A program made the translations under genes and the position numbers. A stretch of DNA of 64,000 nucleotides from the NCBI GenBank assembly GCA_937911325.1, contig CALDSD010000068.1, positions 1 to 64,000 on the forward strand, in the 5' to 3' direction. This DNA is from an uncultured Neomegalonema sp. (lineage in GTDB: Bacteria; Pseudomonadota; Alphaproteobacteria; Rhodobacterales; Rhodobacteraceae). This document shows, piece after piece, positions 9,465-63,806 of this stretch (positions are counted from its first letter, which is position 1; each line of letters starts with the position of its first letter). Below the pieces are notes generated by a model that saw only the letters and a program-made list of their open reading frames with translations, was not told the DNA's origin and ran no database searches.

Positions 9465-9546
9465 TGTCGGCGGGCGACTTGCATCCGGCCAGATGTGTAA
9501 GGTGAAGGCCGCGTGAGCCGCCGGATCGTTCTTGTGGGGAAGATCC

Positions 9547-11151
9547 ATGTCAGATGATGTCATTCGGTCGAGAGTCGGCGGTTTTCGCGAGCCGATCGCG
9601 TCCAAACCTCTCGCGTTCTGGGGGGCGATCCTTCTCGGCGTCGTCGCATCGACGGCGTTCTTTTGGAATGGTGTGGTGTCCCTGATCGACGCCTGGGGGC
9701 AGCCGGAGTACAGCCACGGTCCTCTGATCCCCGTGATTTCGGCTTTTCTTCTGTTCCGACAGCTGCGTGACACAAAGATGGCTGACGGGCCGATCACGGA
9801 CCGTTGGCCAGGCGTGGTCTTGTGCGTCTTGGCTCTGTTGCTCGCTGGTATTGGCAACATCACTCAGATCCCTGATCTCGTCACCTATGGACTGATTGCC
9901 TGGGTCGGCGCGCTGCTGCGCGCGCGGTATGGCTGGCGGCGCGGGCGCGTGCTTTGGCCACCTGTTCTCCATCTGGTGTTCATGCTTCCGCTGCCGGTGT
10001 TCGTCGCTTGGCAGTTCTCGCTGTTTCTCCAGTTTATCTCGTCTGAGATCGGCGTTGCGCTGATCCAACTGATGAACGTTCCTGTTTATCTGGACGGAAA
10101 CATCATCGATCTCGGCGTCTACAAGCTCCACGTCGCCGAAGCCTGTTCCGGCTTACGCTACCTGTTTCCGATCCTGAGCTTCTCGTACATCTTCGCGATC
10201 CTCTATCAGGGGCCGATGTGGCACAAAGCTGTGCTGCTCCTGTCGGCGGCGCCGATCGCGATCCTGATGAACAGCCTTCGCATCGGCATCATCGGCTACA
10301 TGGTCAACAGCTATGGCATCGAGCACGCCGAGGGCTTTTTGCACCTCTTCGAAGGCTGGGTGATCTTTGGCCTCTGCATTCTGGCGCTGTTGGGCCTCGC
10401 ATGGGGTTTGAACAAACTCAGACGGCGGAAGGAAAGCCTGGCTCAAGCGTTGGACCTGGACTTCGACGACCTGCAGCCGCAGGTCGCGCGGTTGTTTAAC
10501 GTGGCGCCGTCGCGTGCTCTCACGACCTGCCTCGTCCTGGTTACGGCTGCGGCCGCTTTGTGGCAGCTGACCCCCAGGGCCGATGCAGCCAATGTCGACC
10601 GGGACCCGTTGGCGCTGTACCCGGTCGTGATGGACGGCTGGTCGTCCTCGCCCCAGCAGACCCTGGCGCCTGGCATTGAGCGCATTCTGGGCGCAGACGA
10701 TTACCGCGCCGTGCATTTCAGTCATCCCGACGAACCGGCGAGCGTCGACTTCTTCGTCGCGTACTATGACAAGCTCGCTGGCGGGGCCGGCATCCACTCG
10801 CCGGAGATCTGTCTTCCCGCAGGTGGTTGGGAGATGTCGGCGATCGCGCAGCAGAACATCGAGCTGGAAAGCGGTCTGGCGTTTGCCGTCAACCGCGCGG
10901 TCATCCAGAAGGGGCTGGAGAAGAAGCTGGTCTATTATTGGTTCGAGCAGCGGGGACGCCGCCTCACCAGCGACTACACCGCCAAGGCATATACCGTTAT
11001 CGACGCGTTGACCCGAGGGCGGACCGACGGCGCCCTTGTGCGGGTGATCACCTCGATCCTGCCGGGAGAGACCGAGGCCGTCGCAGACGCGCGGCTAAAG
11101 CGGATGCTGGAGCCGACCATGGAGGTTTTACCGCGGTTCGTGCCTGGATAG
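9547..11151 (+). CDS. Exosortase (XrtD-like) fused to EpsI domain
   Basis: A polytopic membrane transpeptidase of 534 residues. The N-terminal exosortase domain (about 20-300, eight or so membrane segments) carries the catalytic triad in order: Cys200 in VAEACSGLRYL, Arg245 in MNSLRIGIIG and His266 in GFLHLFEGW. The C-terminal part (about 340-534) is an EpsI-type domain with HSPEICLPAGGWEM. This fused layout is seen in VPLPA-CTERM exosortases of alphaproteobacteria. Exosortases sort proteins with a short C-terminal PEP-like tag and usually accompany exopolysaccharide genes. No tagged substrate or EPS gene is in the window. The ATG at 9547 follows GGGGAAG; a TTG at 9532 in the same frame lacks this signal. 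Confidence 0.88.
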   Translation: MSDDVIRSRVGGFREPIASKPLAFWGAILLGVVASTAFFWNGVVSLIDAWGQPEYSHGPLIPVISAFLLFRQLRDTKMADGPITDRWPGVVLCVLALLLAGIGNITQIPDLVTYGLIAWVGALLRARYGWRRGRVLWPPVLHLVFMLPLPVFVAWQFSLFLQFISSEIGVALIQLMNVPVYLDGNIIDLGVYKLHVAEACSGLRYLFPILSFSYIFAILYQGPMWHKAVLLLSAAPIAILMNSLRIGIIGYMVNSYGIEHAEGFLHLFEGWVIFGLCILALLGLAWGLNKLRRRKESLAQALDLDFDDLQPQVARLFNVAPSRALTTCLVLVTAAAALWQLTPRADAANVDRDPLALYPVVMDGWSSSPQQTLAPGIERILGADDYRAVHFSHPDEPASVDFFVAYYDKLAGGAGIHSPEICLPAGGWEMSAIAQQNIELESGLAFAVNRAVIQKGLEKKLVYYWFEQRGRRLTSDYTAKAYTVIDALTRGRTDGALVRVITSILPGETEAVADARLKRMLEPTMEVLPRFVPG

Positions 11152-11180: not shown

Positions 11181-12044
11181 CTAGAGGTGAGTGGAGAGAA
11201 AGCGGCGGATCTCTTCGGCCGCCAACGCCGGCGCTTCTTCATGCAGCAGATGTCCATAGTCGGCGAAGGTTTTGAGTTCGGCGGTCGTCATTTGCGCCAA
11301 CACGGAGTCGGCGGTGTCCGGCGGGACGGAACCGTCTTTCTCCCCGACGATCAGCAGTGTCGGCGTCTCGATCTCCTGAAGGCGCCGCAGCAAAGGCGAC
11401 AGCTCCCACTGAGCCATCATCGCGAGGGCGCCGTCGACATGGCGGCTGTCAGAGATGAGACGCTGGTAGAGCGCGACGCCGCTCGCGTCGATTGTGCTGC
11501 CTGTGGACGCGAGCAGGTTTCGAGCGGCGTTCGGCGAACGCGCCATGCGGGCAAAAAATGGCGCGGTCAGCGGGTTCATCGACAGCAGCTTGGCCGCCAT
11601 CGGAAACAAGACGCCCGCCAGTCCTCGGAAATGACCAAACGCCCCGTTGAAGCAGATCAGAGCTTTCGGCTTGTCCGTCAGATCGAGCGCTAACTGGGCG
11701 GCGATCACCGCCCCGGCCGAATGCCCGATGATCGCGTCCGGCGTGACGCCCTGATCGGCGAGAAGCGCGATGATGTCCGCGACCATCGGCTCGAGACCGC
11801 ACCGCGAGCGCGCGCCGAGTTCCGTGAAGCCCTGGCCCGGCAGATCGATCGCGACGACGTGGTGGTCGCTGGCCAGGTCCGGGAACAGATCGCGCCACGT
11901 GTGGGTCGAAGCGCCGGCGCCGTGCAGCAGCAGCAACGTCGGCCCCGTTCCCGCCTCTTGAACATGCCAACGATGCGGCTTCGCCAAAACGAACCGGCTC
12001 TGCGCTCGGTTCGGCCAATCAGCTCCGTCGCGATCCCACTTCAC
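11181..12044 (-). CDS. bchO: BchO, alpha/beta hydrolase of magnesium chelatase operon
   Basis: A 287-residue alpha/beta-hydrolase-fold protein encoded after bchI and bchD, the usual place of bchO. Its exact role is unsettled; it is usually linked to the Mg-insertion step of bacteriochlorophyll synthesis. The N-terminus DWPNRAQSRFV and WHVQEAGTGPTLLLLHGAG are BchO hallmarks. The nucleophile elbow is GHSAG with Ser109, the acid is probably in VGEKDGSVP, and the His in YGHLLHEE. Its ATG overlaps the bchD stop by four bases (ATGA at 12041-12044), so translation is coupled. Last gene of the crtA-bchI-bchD-bchO operon. Confidence 0.93.
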   Translation of the reverse strand: MKWDRDGADWPNRAQSRFVLAKPHRWHVQEAGTGPTLLLLHGAGASTHTWRDLFPDLASDHHVVAIDLPGQGFTELGARSRCGLEPMVADIIALLADQGVTPDAIIGHSAGAVIAAQLALDLTDKPKALICFNGAFGHFRGLAGVLFPMAAKLLSMNPLTAPFFARMARSPNAARNLLASTGSTIDASGVALYQRLISDSRHVDGALAMMAQWELSPLLRRLQEIETPTLLIVGEKDGSVPPDTADSVLAQMTTAELKTFADYGHLLHEEAPALAAEEIRRFLSTHL

Positions 12045-13732
12045 GCAGACCTGCTCATTGCAGAAGTCACCGCCGCGGACAGGCCGCGGGCGTCGGCGCG
12101 GGGCAGGGGGAGATACTCGGCGTCCAGCGACGCGGCGAGGTCGCGCGCCGGCGCCTGAGGTCGACGGGACGCGTCGATCACGATCGAGCTTGTTCCGTTC
12201 GCGGCGTGAACGCGACCAAGGCGTTGAGCGTCTTCACCGGCTTTGGAGCGATCCGCGGTTCCGTCGAGCGCGATGTTCGCACGGCCGTCCGTGAGCAGGA
12301 TCAGGCTTGGACTCATGCCGCGGCGACGCGCGGTCTCGGTCTGTTCGAGCGCGGCTTGGAGGCCCGCTGCGAGAGGCGTTGCGCCGCCGCCGGGCAGCCC
12401 GGACAGGCAGCGCTTTGCTCGGGTGAGCGAGCGCGTGGGCGGCAATAGCGTTTCGGCCGTATCGCCGCGAAACGCGATCAAGGCGACATGGTCGCGCTTG
12501 GCGTAGGCGTTGGCCAGAAGGATCTCGACGGCGCCTTTGGCCTCCGCCAATCGTGCGAGAGCAGTCGATCCCGACGCGTCCACCGCGAAGACCAACAGCC
12601 GGTCTGTTCTGTCCTCCCGTCGGCGCAGCCGGATGTCGTCGCCGCGCACGAGCACCCTCTGGGCGGCGTTCGGCGTCTCCTGTCGACGCAACGGTTGCCA
12701 AGGGGCCGCCGCTCGCAGCGTCGCGGTCAGGTCGATCCGCGATCGACCGTCCAGACGGCCGCGCCGCGAGGGCAATGGTCGCCCTCGTTGAGCGCTCCGC
12801 CGCGAGGCGCCATGCCCCGCGCCGGATTGGTTGGCGCGAGTGGACGCATGGCTAAGCCGGTCGAGCACATCGGGCGGCAGGGCCGACTTTACCGCATCGA
12901 GAAGGATCTCTGAGGGGATGTCTTGGGACCGCTGATCGTCTGTTTCAGCGCTGTTCTCTTCGGGAGTGTCAGGCGCCGGCGTATCGTCGTCGCCAACGTC
13001 TTCGTCCGGAACGACAAGCGCGCGCGGCGCCAGGACAAGCTGCGCGGAGAGCGCCAGATCTTCCTCGCTGACGTCGGTGCGGCCGGCCAGAGCGCAGGCC
13101 GCCTTCGCGGTTCGAAGCGCAAGGATTGGGGCCCGCAGACTGTCGACGCCCAGTCGGACCGCGATCACGGTGAGATCTTTCATCGCGTCGTCAGCGACTT
13201 TGACGTCCGGCAAGCGATCTCGTGCGGCGGAGACGGCTTCGGCGTCGACCGTGAACGGAAGCGCGTCCACATGCCGGAGACCGTCAAGATCGATTTGGAA
13301 GGCGAGCCGGTCGGCAAGCGCAGACGGCGCCGCTTCATCTGTGGCCGCGCCTTCATCCAGCGCGACCAGCGCAGCGGCGTCGTCGTCCAGCGCCATGCCA
13401 AGTCGAGCGGCCAATTGGGCGGACGCGCGTTCGGCCATGGGCAGGACAAGGAGCACAGGCTCCGCCAACAGCCCTTTGTCGCGAACCGGTCTGCCGGCGG
13501 CCAACGTCGCCGCCAAGTCCAGCCCCCCGCTGAGCTGTTCTTCGGACACGTCGGTCGCGATGCGGCGCACGGGCAGCGGCGCGAGGGCTGGAGCCAAAGC
13601 AGCGCGCCATCGATCTCGCGCCGGGCCAGCTTGCGCCCGCAGCCAGACGCCGCCCAACCCGATCGGATCCACGGCGACCAGCGTCAGCGCCGACTTCGCA
13701 GCGCGCCACGGATCGTACCCGCGGTCCGTCAC
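12041..13732 (-). CDS. bchD: Magnesium chelatase subunit D
   Basis: A 563-residue subunit that forms, with BchI, the AAA+ motor inserting Mg2+ into protoporphyrin IX together with BchH (not in the window). It has an N-terminal degenerate AAA+ region with no intact Walker A, a Pro/acidic linker near residues 245-275 ([18 protein letters not shown]), and a C-terminal von Willebrand A domain with the MIDAS motif DASGST around residue 380. The length fits BchD (about 550-670). The start is GTG at 13732, overlapping the bchI stop in GTGA (13729-13732). The ORF is continuous. Confidence 0.94.
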
Positions 13733-14763
13733 GTCTCTCGCGCCTCGCCAAAAACTTCCTCAAGCGCGCGTCCGACGCGTGCGCTTGAACCAGCCTCGTC
13801 TAGCGGATCCCTCCGCAGACGATGGCGCAAGGCGCTCGGGGCCACCGCCCGCAGCTCGGCGCGCTGAACCTTGGCCTTGCCTTCGAACGCGGCGAGGGCC
13901 CGAGCGGCGCGCATGAGCGTCAGTTCGCCCCTCAGGCCGTCAGAACCGAGCGCGAGGCAAAGTCGCGCGCAATCCTCCAGGGCGGCGTCCTCCACCGCGA
14001 CATTGGTCAAGCGCGTTCGGGCGGCGAGGATGGATTGCCGCAGCTCTGCGTCGGCCGCGCGCCAAGGCGGCAGGAAGGTTTCGGGATCGGTGTCGTAGGC
14101 GTCGCGGCGGCGGATCACTTCGACCCGCTCGGAAACGTCTTTTGGCGAGCTCACCTCGACCGACAGTCCGAACCGATCGAGCAGTTGTGGTCTGAGTTCG
14201 CCTTCCTCGGGATTGCCCGATCCAACCAGAACGAACTTCGCCGCGTGGCGAATGGAGAGCCCCTCGCGCTCCACGACGTTCTCGCCAGAGGCGGCGACGT
14301 CGAGAAGAAGATCGACCAAGTGATCTTCGAGCAGGTTCACTTCGTCGATGTAGAGATACCCGCGATGGGCCCGCGCAAGGAGCCCGGGTTCGAACGCTTT
14401 CTCGCCGCGGGTGAGGGCGCGCTCTATGTCCAGCGCGCCGACAACCCGGTCTTCCGTCGCGCCGAGCGGCAAATCGACCACCGGCGTCGGCCGCTCTACA
14501 AGCGTCTGTGGCGGATGCTCGCGACAGTGCGGGCAGTCGCCATCGAGGGTCGCCGTGTTGTAGGGGCATCCTTCCACCGCTTGGATCGGCGGCAGCAGGG
14601 CCGCCAACGCTCTGACGGCGGTGGATTTGCCGGCGCCGCGGTCGCCGAACGCCAACACCCCGCCGATGCTGGGGTCGATCGCCGTCAGGACCAGGGCGCG
14701 TTTCATTTCGTCTTGCCCGACGATGGCGGAGAATGGGAACGGTTGAGGAGCGGTGCGGCTCAT
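13729..14763 (-). CDS. bchI: Magnesium chelatase ATPase subunit I
   Basis: A 344-residue AAA+ ATPase of the Mg-chelatase. Walker A is GDRGAGKST (residues 40-48), Walker B is in [12 protein letters not shown] (136-147), and the sensor/Arg region includes [20 protein letters not shown]. The [15 protein letters not shown] insertion is typical of BchI. The frame is open upstream to 14814, but the start at 14763 is chosen because the homologous sequence [16 protein letters not shown] begins 8 residues later and the ATG overlaps the crtA stop as ATGA (14760-14763). Confidence 0.96.
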
Positions 14764-15500
14764 GCGGCGGCCTCGGTCAGGTTGAAACGGGCAAGGGGAC
14801 GATCGCCCTGCCAACGCGGATCGGTCCAGGCGCCTTCGTCGGCGAGGATCTCAAACCGCGCATAGAGTTCTTCTGCGAACCAGGCGCCGTCTCTCACGGC
14901 CTTGATCGCCCGCGCATGCGGACCGTCGGCGCGCGCGAACGCCGCCATGCTCGCCGCATTGGGCCAGATCGAGAAGGTGACCTGATTGATCAGCGGCGCC
15001 TCGCCCATTCCGATCTTGAAGGCGACGTTCGGGTCGGCGCCGATGGCTGTGCTGATGTCCGGCACCCGACGCCAGAATTGGCGCATGATCGAGGGCTTCA
15101 ACCGCGCTCGCGTCAACGCGGCGATCGGACCCGTTTGCGGGGGTGAGGACCGGGGCGGCGCCTTGAAGGGCTCGACGCCCGCCCATTTGCCGCGCGCGGA
15201 CGTCGGAGCCATGAACAGCGTCCAGTTTTCCGACGATTGGTCCCGGAACGCCTTGAAGGACCGCGCGTTTCGAACCTGATCGCGCGCGTGCTCAAGCGAC
15301 GGCCACGTCGCCAGGATCGTATAGACGCCCGTATTCGGCGCAGGCGTGAATCCTTCGCCGGTCCCGGTTCCGCAGAGCTTATAGAAACCGACGCCAGGGG
15401 TGGTTTTCAAGCCCGAGTGGGCGAAACCCATCTGGCTGAAGGCCCACAGGCGCGCGGCGATGCTCCGAAAGCGGAAGAAGCTGAGGCTTACGGTCTGGAT
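14760..15500 (-). CDS. crtA: Spheroidene monooxygenase CrtA (start codon apparently ATC)
   Basis: A haem-dependent monooxygenase of about 246 residues that adds the keto group of spheroidenone under oxygen. Family motifs are [18 protein letters not shown] at the N-terminus, [31 protein letters not shown] and the distal [17 protein letters not shown]. CrtA proteins normally begin MQTV; here that Met codon is ATC (15498-15500). A strong GGAGG (complement of 15506-15510) lies exactly 5 bases upstream of this ATC. The nearest canonical in-frame start is GTG at 15521, which has only AAGG 2 bases away. The ATG at 15671 would run into the divergent crtI. I place the start at the ATC on Shine-Dalgarno and homology grounds, but GTG 15521 is possible. 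First gene of crtA-bchIDO. Confidence 0.9.
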
Positions 15501-15574
15501 GGTCGCCTCCTCTTTACGCACGGCCTTACAGACCAAAACCAAGCGTTTTCTAATGAAACGCGCTCGCACTTGAT

Positions 15575-15592
15575 TGTCAATTATACTAGACA
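15575..15592. promoter_or_regulatory. PpsR/CrtJ operator between crtA and crtI
   Basis: TGT-N12-ACA (TGTCAATTATACTAGACA), the recognition pattern of the PpsR/CrtJ repressor, in the divergent crtA/crtI region. On the minus strand it overlaps a TTGACA that can act as the crtA -35 element, with TTTCAT 16 bases on. On the plus strand TTGTCA overlaps its left half. Binding would therefore block both promoters. Confidence 0.75.
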
Positions 15593-15637
15593 CTGATAGC
15601 GTGCCAAGATGCTGACACGTTGAGTGTAGGAAACACG

Positions 15638-17191
15638 ATGTCGCGCCTGAACCATAAACCGCCTTCAGCACTGGTGATCGGCGCTGGCTTTGGCGGCCTC
15701 GCCGCGGCGATGCGCCTGGGCGCGAAGGGATACCGCGTCACGGTCCTTGACCGGCTTGAGAGCCCCGGAGGGCGAGCGACGTCGGTGACGCGGAACGGTC
15801 ACCGTTTCGATCTGGGGCCGACCATCGTCACGGTGCCTGACGTTTTCCAGAAGCTCTGGGCTGCGACCGGACGCCGATTTGAGGACGATGTGGATCTGCG
15901 TCCGCTCGATCCGTTCTACGAGATCCGATTTCAAGACGGCTCCGCCTTTACGGCGCGCAAAGACCCCGCGGCCATGCGCGAAGAGGTGAGGCGCTTGGCG
16001 CCAGACGATCTCGCCGGATTCGACCGGCTTATGCGCGGCGCCGAGCGACGCTATCAGTTTGGTTTTGAGAACCTGGGCCGGCGCCCGATGCATGAGCTGT
16101 GGGAGTTGATAAAGGTCCTTCCGACCTTCGCCTGGTATCGGGCGGATCGTTCGATCTACGCTCATGCCGCGAGACAGGTGCGCGATGAGCGACTGCGGAT
16201 GGCGTTGAGCTTTCATCCGCTCTTCATCGGCGGCGACCCCTTCAAGGTCACCTCCATGTATGCGCTGGTCTCGCATCTCGAAGCTGCGTTCGGCGTCCAT
16301 TATGCGATGGGCGGAGCTGGCGCGATCGCGGAAGGAATGGCCAAAGTCGTGGGCGATCAGGGCGGCGAAGTCCTTTATGGCGCTCAAGCCGACGAAATCA
16401 CCGTCGAGAATGATCGAGCCACAGGCGTGAAGCTCGCCAGTGGCGAGACGCTGCGGTCGGAGATCGTCGTCTCGAACGCGGATGTCGGGCACACCTACGA
16501 TCATCTTCTGCGAAAGCGTCGCCGCAAGCGGTGGACCGGACCACGCCTGAAACGCGCGCGTTGGTCGATGGGCTTGTTCCTTTGGTACTTTGGAACCAAG
16601 GGAACGCGGGACCTGTGGCCGGATGTCGGGCATCACACGATACTGAACGGTCCTCGCTACCGCGGACTGGTGCGCGATATCTTCATCAAGGGCCGCCTCG
16701 CCGAGGATATGAGCCTGTATGTGCATCGGCCCACTGTGACCGATCCGAGCGCTGCGCCCGCGGGCGGCGACACCTTCTACGCCTTGTCGCCGGTGCCGCA
16801 TCTGGGGCACGCCGATCCGGTTGATTGGGCGGAAAGAGCAGAGCCTTACCGCCAAAAGGTGCAGGAGGTGTTGGAGCGCGACCTGCTGCCGGGTCTCAGC
16901 GCCCATCTCAGCGCGAGCCATGTGATGACCCCGAACGATTTCGAAAGCCGCTATCTCAGCCCGCACGGTTCGGGTTTCTCGATCGAGCCGCGGATCCTGC
17001 AGAGCGCCTGGTTTCGGCCGCACAACGTGTCGGAGGAGGTCAAGGGCCTGTTCCTGGTCGGGGCGGGGACCCATCCGGGCGCCGGGCTGCCCGGGGTCGT
17101 CGTCTCGGCCGAAGTGATGGATCAACTTGTCCCGGACGCGCGGCCCGCGATGGCTGATGCGACAGCTGCTGATCTGGTGGCGGCGGAATGA
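15638..17191 (+). CDS. crtI: Phytoene desaturase CrtI
   Basis: A 517-residue FAD enzyme that desaturates phytoene (to neurosporene in the three-step form used in the spheroidene pathway). The dinucleotide-binding motif is VIGAGFGGLAAAM (GxGxxG at residues 15-20) with PGGRATS, and the C-terminal bacterial phytoene dehydrogenase signature is VGAGTHPGAGLPGVVVSAEVM (about 470-490). The start is ATG at 15638, 7 bases after AGGA; an in-frame TTG at 15620 lacks a ribosome site. It overlaps crtB by ATGA. The number of desaturation steps is inferred from the companion crtC/crtD/crtF genes, not from the sequence. Confidence 0.96.
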   Translation: MSRLNHKPPSALVIGAGFGGLAAAMRLGAKGYRVTVLDRLESPGGRATSVTRNGHRFDLGPTIVTVPDVFQKLWAATGRRFEDDVDLRPLDPFYEIRFQDGSAFTARKDPAAMREEVRRLAPDDLAGFDRLMRGAERRYQFGFENLGRRPMHELWELIKVLPTFAWYRADRSIYAHAARQVRDERLRMALSFHPLFIGGDPFKVTSMYALVSHLEAAFGVHYAMGGAGAIAEGMAKVVGDQGGEVLYGAQADEITVENDRATGVKLASGETLRSEIVVSNADVGHTYDHLLRKRRRKRWTGPRLKRARWSMGLFLWYFGTKGTRDLWPDVGHHTILNGPRYRGLVRDIFIKGRLAEDMSLYVHRPTVTDPSAAPAGGDTFYALSPVPHLGHADPVDWAERAEPYRQKVQEVLERDLLPGLSAHLSASHVMTPNDFESRYLSPHGSGFSIEPRILQSAWFRPHNVSEEVKGLFLVGAGTHPGAGLPGVVVSAEVMDQLVPDARPAMADATAADLVAAE

Positions 17192-43755: not shown

Positions 43756-43773
43756 TGTCCAACGATAACGACA
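43756..43773. promoter_or_regulatory. PpsR operator 1, crtD/crtE region
   Basis: TGT-N12-ACA (TGTCCAACGATAACGACA). It lies 63 bases upstream of crtD and 25 bases (start to start) from the second site. Confidence 0.75.
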
Positions 43774-43780
43774 ATCTAAC

Positions 43781-43798
43781 TGTCTACTCAAGTAGACA
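43781..43798. promoter_or_regulatory. PpsR operator 2, crtD/crtE region
   Basis: TGT-N12-ACA (TGTCTACTCAAGTAGACA), an almost perfect palindrome ending 18 bases before the crtE ATG. Together with the first site it gives the paired arrangement typical for cooperative PpsR binding. A TTATAT follows at 43800-43805. Confidence 0.8.
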
Positions 43799-45921: not shown

Positions 45922-45939
45922 TGTATATGTTGATTGACA
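45922..45939. promoter_or_regulatory. PpsR operator 1 upstream of bchC
   Basis: TGT-N12-ACA (TGTATATGTTGATTGACA). Its last six bases are the TTGACA -35 element of the bchC promoter. Confidence 0.8.
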
Positions 45940-45961
45940 TAAATTGCTGTCAACATAAACT
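45934..45961 (+). promoter_or_regulatory. Sigma-70-like bchC promoter
   Basis: TTGACA (45934-45939), a 16-base spacer and TAAACT (45956-45961), about 80 bases before the bchC ATG. The -35 lies in one PpsR site and the -10 in the other, a layout that explains repression. Confidence 0.65.
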
Positions 45962-45965
45962 GACA
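45948..45965. promoter_or_regulatory. PpsR operator 2 upstream of bchC
   Basis: TGT-N12-ACA (TGTCAACATAAACTGACA), 8 bases after the first site ends; it covers the -10 element. Confidence 0.8.
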
Positions 45966-63649: not shown

Positions 63650-63667
63650 TGTCAAAGGCGTCAGACA
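63650..63667. promoter_or_regulatory. PpsR operator, ppaA side of the ppaA/bchF region
   Basis: TGT-N12-ACA (TGTCAAAGGCGTCAGACA), 147 bases upstream of the ppaA ATG and 139 bases from the bchF-side site. Confidence 0.65.
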
Positions 63668-63788
63668 CATCCGTCCACCTTCAAAACTAATTCAGCGCGT
63701 TGGATCGATGTGGAGCGTTTTTTGTCAACAGAAACGCCGAATTCGCGGCGCTGTGCCCCGAGTCCATAGCAAACTGTCAATTTCAAAG

Positions 63789-63806
63789 TGTAAATTAGCA
63801 TTGACA
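63789..63806. promoter_or_regulatory. PpsR operator upstream of bchF
   Basis: TGT-N12-ACA (TGTAAATTAGCATTGACA). Its end is a TTGACA (63801-63806) that can serve as the bchF -35 element, with TAGCTT 18 bases on (63825-63830). A half-site TGTCAA precedes it at 63775. Confidence 0.75.

Follow-up and report, generated by a model that had tools for sequence, protein, structure and literature searches.

The spheroidene monooxygenase gene crtA in the window, the whole 64,000-nucleotide stretch of DNA analysed here, in all likelihood starts at the AUC codon at 15500. Sequence comparison indicates that initiation of crtA at AUU, AUC or AUA (together AUH; ATT, ATC or ATA in DNA) is very probably a recurrent trait of the window's family. 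The best explanation overall, and one that we regard as probable, is that the AUC would serve as a weak, IF3-discriminated start behind a strong Shine-Dalgarno (SD) sequence at the head of the crtA-bchIDO gene run. Such a start may act as a control on a light-harvesting operon.

The crtA gene of the window and its start region

CrtA enzymes turn spheroidene into spheroidenone with oxygen. The window gene scored 343.6 bits against the curated NCBIfam model NF045923 (cut-off 300) and lies between the divergent crtI and bchI, the position expected of crtA. A reading of the gene as a pseudogene was rejected as the frame is intact with no stop inside the match. A PDB sequence search returned no match at E 0.001 or better, the best being 0.087. 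The gene, its start region and its neighbours are laid out as follows.

14760..15500, minus strand: crtA, spheroidene monooxygenase; reading from ATC gives 246 codons and a stop (NF045923, translation)
15498..15500, minus strand: ATC, probable start codon of crtA
15506..15511, minus strand: Shine-Dalgarno AGGAGG, spaced 5 bases from the crtA ATC
15519..15521, minus strand: in-frame GTG, rival crtA start with a poorly placed SD
15580..15607, minus strand: promoter-like TTGGCA-16-TATAAT for crtA, sigma-70-like, 11 of 12 consensus positions (a consensus match only)
15575..15592, unstranded: PpsR/CrtJ-type box TGT-N12-ACA, overlapping the -10 hexamer of the predicted crtA promoter
15638..17191, plus strand: crtI, phytoene desaturase, divergent, canonical ATG start (TIGR02734)
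13729..14763, minus strand: bchI (TIGR02030), its ATG overlapping the crtA stop (ATGA, 14763-14760)
12041..13732, minus strand: bchD, following bchI in the crtA-bchIDO run (profile match)
11181..12044, minus strand: bchO, which closes the crtA-bchIDO run (TIGR03056)

On the minus strand the start region reads GTG CGT AAA GAG GAG GCG ACC ATC CAG ACC GTA AGC CTC AGC. According to the initial annotation crtA appears to begin with ATC and not ATG, and this observation is confirmed, with ATC at 15500-15498 and AGGAGG at a spacing of 5. The CrtA query taken from T3 on aligned at position 3 of the NF045923 profile, which places the ATC on profile position 1. An ATC at the start position behind such an SD fits what is expected of AUH-start genes of the infC/pcnB type. 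Folding of the RNA around the crtA start gave nothing notable (z -0.95).

The frame is open for 80 codons upstream of the ATC and contains GTG and TTG codons, so the window by itself does not force AUC. GTG 15521 has the badly spaced AAGG that the initial annotation ascribed to it, only 2 bases away, and its best correctly spaced SD match is the 3-base GGT at a spacing of 11. Of the remaining canonical codons listed in this frame, TTG 15536, TTG 15542, GTG 15569 and GTG 15593 have no SD match and GTG 15671 has a match of 3 bases. The promoter-like site at 15607-15580 had a mean of 0.0 such sites in shuffles; given this predicted promoter, the crtA mRNA would begin near 15573, and both GTG 15593 and GTG 15671 would fall outside it. 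The preference of the initial annotation for ATC over GTG 15521 as the likely start is borne out by the placement of the SD and by the related genes that have no canonical option, described below.

AUH codons at the aligned crtA start across the family

A search of the window's family, with each genus represented by one genome (394 in all), gave a crtA match in 166. The crtA start region was read in 151 of these genomes, the 15 weak matches being left out. The aligned start codon was ATG in 48 genera, ATT in 33, ATC in 16, ATA in 3, GTG in 8, TTG in 3 and another codon in 40. The initial annotation's premise that CrtA proteins begin MQTV stood for the 48 genera with an ATG at the aligned position and did not stand for the rest, which carry other codons. 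AUH codons were found in 52 of the 151 genera, about a third. In 23 of the 151 genera the stretch from the in-frame stop upstream to the aligned codon is free of ATG, GTG and TTG, and the aligned codon is AUH in all 23.

The full set consisted of 193 distinct rows, made up of the survey, 6 further loci, congeners, named plasmid records (8 minus one duplicate) and 3 relatives from outside the family, with the window included. Left out of it were L017, L018, L233 and L234 (not CrtA by score), L186 and L187 (start missing) and the duplicates L174, L189, L193 and L229. Thirty-two of the 193 rows offer no canonical option from the stop to the aligned codon, and every one of the 32 has AUH there (24 ATT, 5 ATC, 3 ATA). 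In nine of these the upstream stop is only 2-5 codons away, leaving hardly any other start. A downstream start was considered and rejected: the canonical codons shown in the first 20 codons of the 32 rows (the first three candidates per row) had an SD match of 3 bases at most, with the exception of L033, which has a 4-base match at a spacing of 13. An ATG is present at +21 to +23 in 31 of the 32 rows, and a start there would cost about 22 residues.

A canonical codon is present upstream in every one of the 53 rows (of 193) with some other codon at the aligned position, in 36 of them at a distance of one codon. Among the 37 rows whose closest canonical codon lies at that distance upstream, AUH occupied the aligned place in 1, so Ile is not favoured there as an inner residue. 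AUH was absent from the crtA start in the 8 named plasmid records, the 6 named draft-genome loci and the 3 full-length relatives from outside the family.

Codon choice and SD matches at AUH starts

The AUH starts were AUU in 45 rows, AUC in 19 and AUA in 4, whereas the internal Ile codons of the same genes, in the part covered, were 52, 270 and 13, respectively. Starts other than AUC made up 49 of the 68 AUH rows, compared to 13.4 expected and a largest value of 26 in 20000 simulations. As the starts are mostly AUU and the internal Ile codons mostly AUC, the aligned codon is not an ordinary Ile codon.

An SD match of at least 4 bases was detected in 64 of the 68 AUH rows as compared to 31% in shuffled upstreams; one of the AUH rows, L051, has ATT without an SD match. 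Of the 36 AUH rows in which a canonical codon is also present upstream, 33 had their longer SD match at the AUH (the exceptions being L051, L066 and L103). Matches of at least 4 bases were likewise present in 10 of 11 GTG/TTG rows and in 34 of 61 AUG rows, and the difference between the AUH and AUG rows is not secure under kinship, with 2 supported independent pairs. Compensation of the weak codon by the SD was tested on the tree and set aside, the independent pairs being too few. At the other end of the gene, a start-type codon lies over the crtA stop (ATGA, GTGA or TTGA) in 27 of 27 AUH rows with a readable end versus 49 of 59 others, a comparison (Fisher 0.027) that is uncorrected for kinship and is not used as evidence.

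Conservation within genera and on the tree

In the sequences compared, two small genera keep the AUH codon throughout, as does one clade within a third. AUH was present in 5 of 5 crtA rows in the genus of G035 and in 3 of 3 in the genus of G364. The genus of G215 gave 21 readable starts, with AUH in 11 species (10 AUU, 1 AUA) versus AUG in 10, and the 9 AUH species represented in the tree form one clade. The genus of G034 had one crtA only and is uninformative.

The tree was a quick one of 86 full-length CrtA proteins from which the first two codons were excluded, and gains and losses are not separable on it. This tree requires 14 switches of start state compared to a shuffled mean of 23.3, with none of 500 shuffles as low. 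However, just 14 of the 83 inner branches are well supported, and at most 2 of the switches are forced by them.

Start codons of other genes

In the same loci, under a looser rule and with duplicates kept, a canonical start was lacking in 0 of 82 crtI rows and 0 of 84 bchI rows. For crtA, 18 of 157 rows had no canonical start between 40 codons upstream and 5 downstream. A further comparison used 20 genomes hand-picked, non-randomly, for long contigs and AUH cases. Here 12 other photosynthesis-cluster genes produced 3 apparent cases without a canonical start in 203 rows, and crtA produced 7 in 20; bchZ, pufL and pufM yielded no rows. Two of the three apparent cases are artefacts of the rule, with an ATG just past the limit, and the third is bchD in L240. 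This bchD, from G150, has no ATG, GTG or TTG before its conserved part, and a CTG over the bchI stop may be its start.

The infC loci used as a positive control came from the 30 genomes that scored best out of 57 matched, some from other families, and from the window's own genome (L160, L199-L228). The aligned codon was AUA in 27 loci or AUC in 2, accounting for 29 of the 31; the other two read AGA (with ATA next) and CCC, and their N-terminus is poorly aligned. The aligned infC start in most of the sampled alphaproteobacteria is AUA rather than AUU. The infC of the window's genome has AUA at its start and its nearest canonical codon is a TTG 19 codons upstream, so AUA is not forced there by that genome's sequence alone.

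Alternative readings of the ATC codon

A start at GTG 15521, or at TTG 15536 or 15542, would extend CrtA by 7 to 14 residues and turn the ATC into an internal Ile codon, and for GTG 15521 the frame is open and the codon is a standard start. However, a usable SD is found at none of these codons while one stands directly before the ATC, relatives with an in-frame stop 2-12 codons upstream and no canonical codon between cannot start in this way, and the codon choice is unlike that of internal Ile codons, making an upstream GTG or TTG start highly improbable. N-terminal proteomics of Ruegeria pomeroyi may count against AUH starts, as an excerpt of that study gives ATG for 94%, GTG for 5% and TTG for 1% of 486 starts (PMC3305630). 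An error of sequencing or assembly hiding a true ATG was also weighed, the genome being a draft in 102 contigs and the sole genome of its genus in the comparison. The recurrence of AUH in 52 of the 151 genera read, and in congeners, argues that the ATC of the window is not a sequencing slip, and the suggestion in the initial annotation of one odd gene that resequencing might correct did not hold. AUH starts were also found on very long contigs, e.g. L012 (4.15 Mb), L105 (3.90 Mb) and L002 (3.79 Mb), and we consider such an error extremely unlikely.

A possible IF3-dependent throttle on crtA

IF3 disfavours weak third-base pairs, as given in an excerpt of an in vitro translation study (PMC10158994). 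With AUC at 15500 as the start, the initiator fMet-tRNA would pair with the first and second bases of the codon and decode it in vivo despite the third-position mismatch, and the strong, well-placed SD would keep initiation possible and may offset part of the loss. The crtA genes of the family move repeatedly between AUG and near-cognate AUH, the class rejected by IF3. A strong SD combined with a weak codon would throttle translation of the first gene of the crtA-bchIDO run, presumably carried on a single operon mRNA, lowering its yield and making crtA output sensitive to IF3 and to the state of the ribosome. The throttle could shift the balance of CrtA and BchI or, if the two are coupled, affect them together. 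On whether an IF3 throttle of this kind operates at crtA we are evenly divided.

IF3 (PifC) is reported to be needed for the photosystem of R. sphaeroides (Babic 1997, as cited in excerpts of PMC6199135 and PMC2268962), and a candidate link to this requirement is the AUH start with which the pigment operon opens. If the link is true, the crtA start would be a target through which IF3 acts directly on photosynthetic complex formation, and the old report, known here from those excerpts, would become testable. An IF3 layer would also make carotenoid oxidation depend on the status of the ribosome, as well as magnesium chelatase through coupling at the gene overlap. The broader proposal, that the level of IF3 controls crtA-bchIDO through the AUH start of its leader gene as a post-transcriptional layer beneath PpsR, is possible but doubtful.

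The AUH start could also be real and free of regulation if CrtA is needed in small amounts and weak starts drift in at no cost. This would agree with the repeated switching of start state on the tree, and weak starts would be tolerated at low demand. Set against it are the 11 AUH species in the genus of G215, in which there is no return to an ATG one base away, and the retention of the SD together with the excess of AUU over AUC, although none of these observations proves regulation. We hold drift without regulation to be a serious contender, falling somewhat short of an even chance. The initial annotation expected AUC initiation to give low CrtA levels and little spheroidenone, an unsupported expectation that would amount to a gene-specific defect of the strain. 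The AUU starts of E. coli infC and pcnB are described as limiting expression in an excerpt of PMC9410913. Recurrence of AUH in a third of the genera read speaks against a defect peculiar to one strain, and we find this version improbable.

Relation to known non-canonical starts

The probable weak AUC start of crtA can be compared with several described systems. E. coli infC has an AUU start and is autoregulated through IF3 discrimination (excerpt of PMC9410913). Like infC, which reads AUA in the window's genome, crtA has a third-position near-cognate start behind an SD. Unlike infC, it encodes a pigment enzyme and not a translation factor, so that an autoregulatory loop would be absent, and among relatives its codon is AUG in some and AUH in others. 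E. coli pcnB also has an AUU start and a product that is not a translation initiation factor (same excerpt), but crtA heads a run of photosynthesis genes and its trait recurs across a family. The pncA/bbe22 gene of Borrelia burgdorferi is, like crtA, a gene for a metabolic enzyme, with an AUU start misannotated in databases (excerpt of PMC13398362); the evidence given there is experimental, whereas that for crtA is a comparison of 193 sequences. In Rhodobacter capsulatus, of the same group, SAerR provides a non-canonical start in photosynthesis control and regulates the same operons (excerpt of PMC6199135). Its start is an internal CTG that yields an alternative isoform, in contrast to the AUH of crtA, which would be the main start of an enzyme gene.

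Among the matches listed from the open-licence PMC literature, no paper on the crtA start codon was found. In the genera without a canonical option, crtA would be misplaced or truncated by gene finders restricted to ATG, GTG and TTG. If the IF3 reading is true, the repeated adoption of IF3-discriminated starts by a metabolic gene across a bacterial family would provide IF3 with a regulatory target besides its own gene.

Predicted regulatory sites and gene neighbourhood

The TGT-N12-ACA motif for PpsR/CrtJ, found at the -10 hexamer of the predicted crtA promoter, is also given in an excerpt of PMC6199135. The window contains 15 such boxes, e.g. at 15575-15592, 43756-43798, 45922-45965 and 63650-63806, versus 4.7 expected in shuffles, and some of them are paired. 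A terminator-like hairpin with a T-rich tail is present on the minus strand at 15561-15543, in the predicted crtA leader between the promoter and the SD; shuffled versions of the region contained a mean of 0.2 such sites.

The photosynthesis cluster seems to be interrupted between tspO and crtC (window 18772-39850). This interval, whose ORFs were identified in part, contains an HTH-cupin regulator, a glutamine amidotransferase domain, a glutamate-synthase-like protein, a type III glutamine synthetase and an MFS protein, followed by an ATP-grasp/DUF2126/transglutaminase block. At the bchO end, the photosynthesis genes are adjoined by a gene for the VPLPA-CTERM exosortase XrtD (window 9532-11151).
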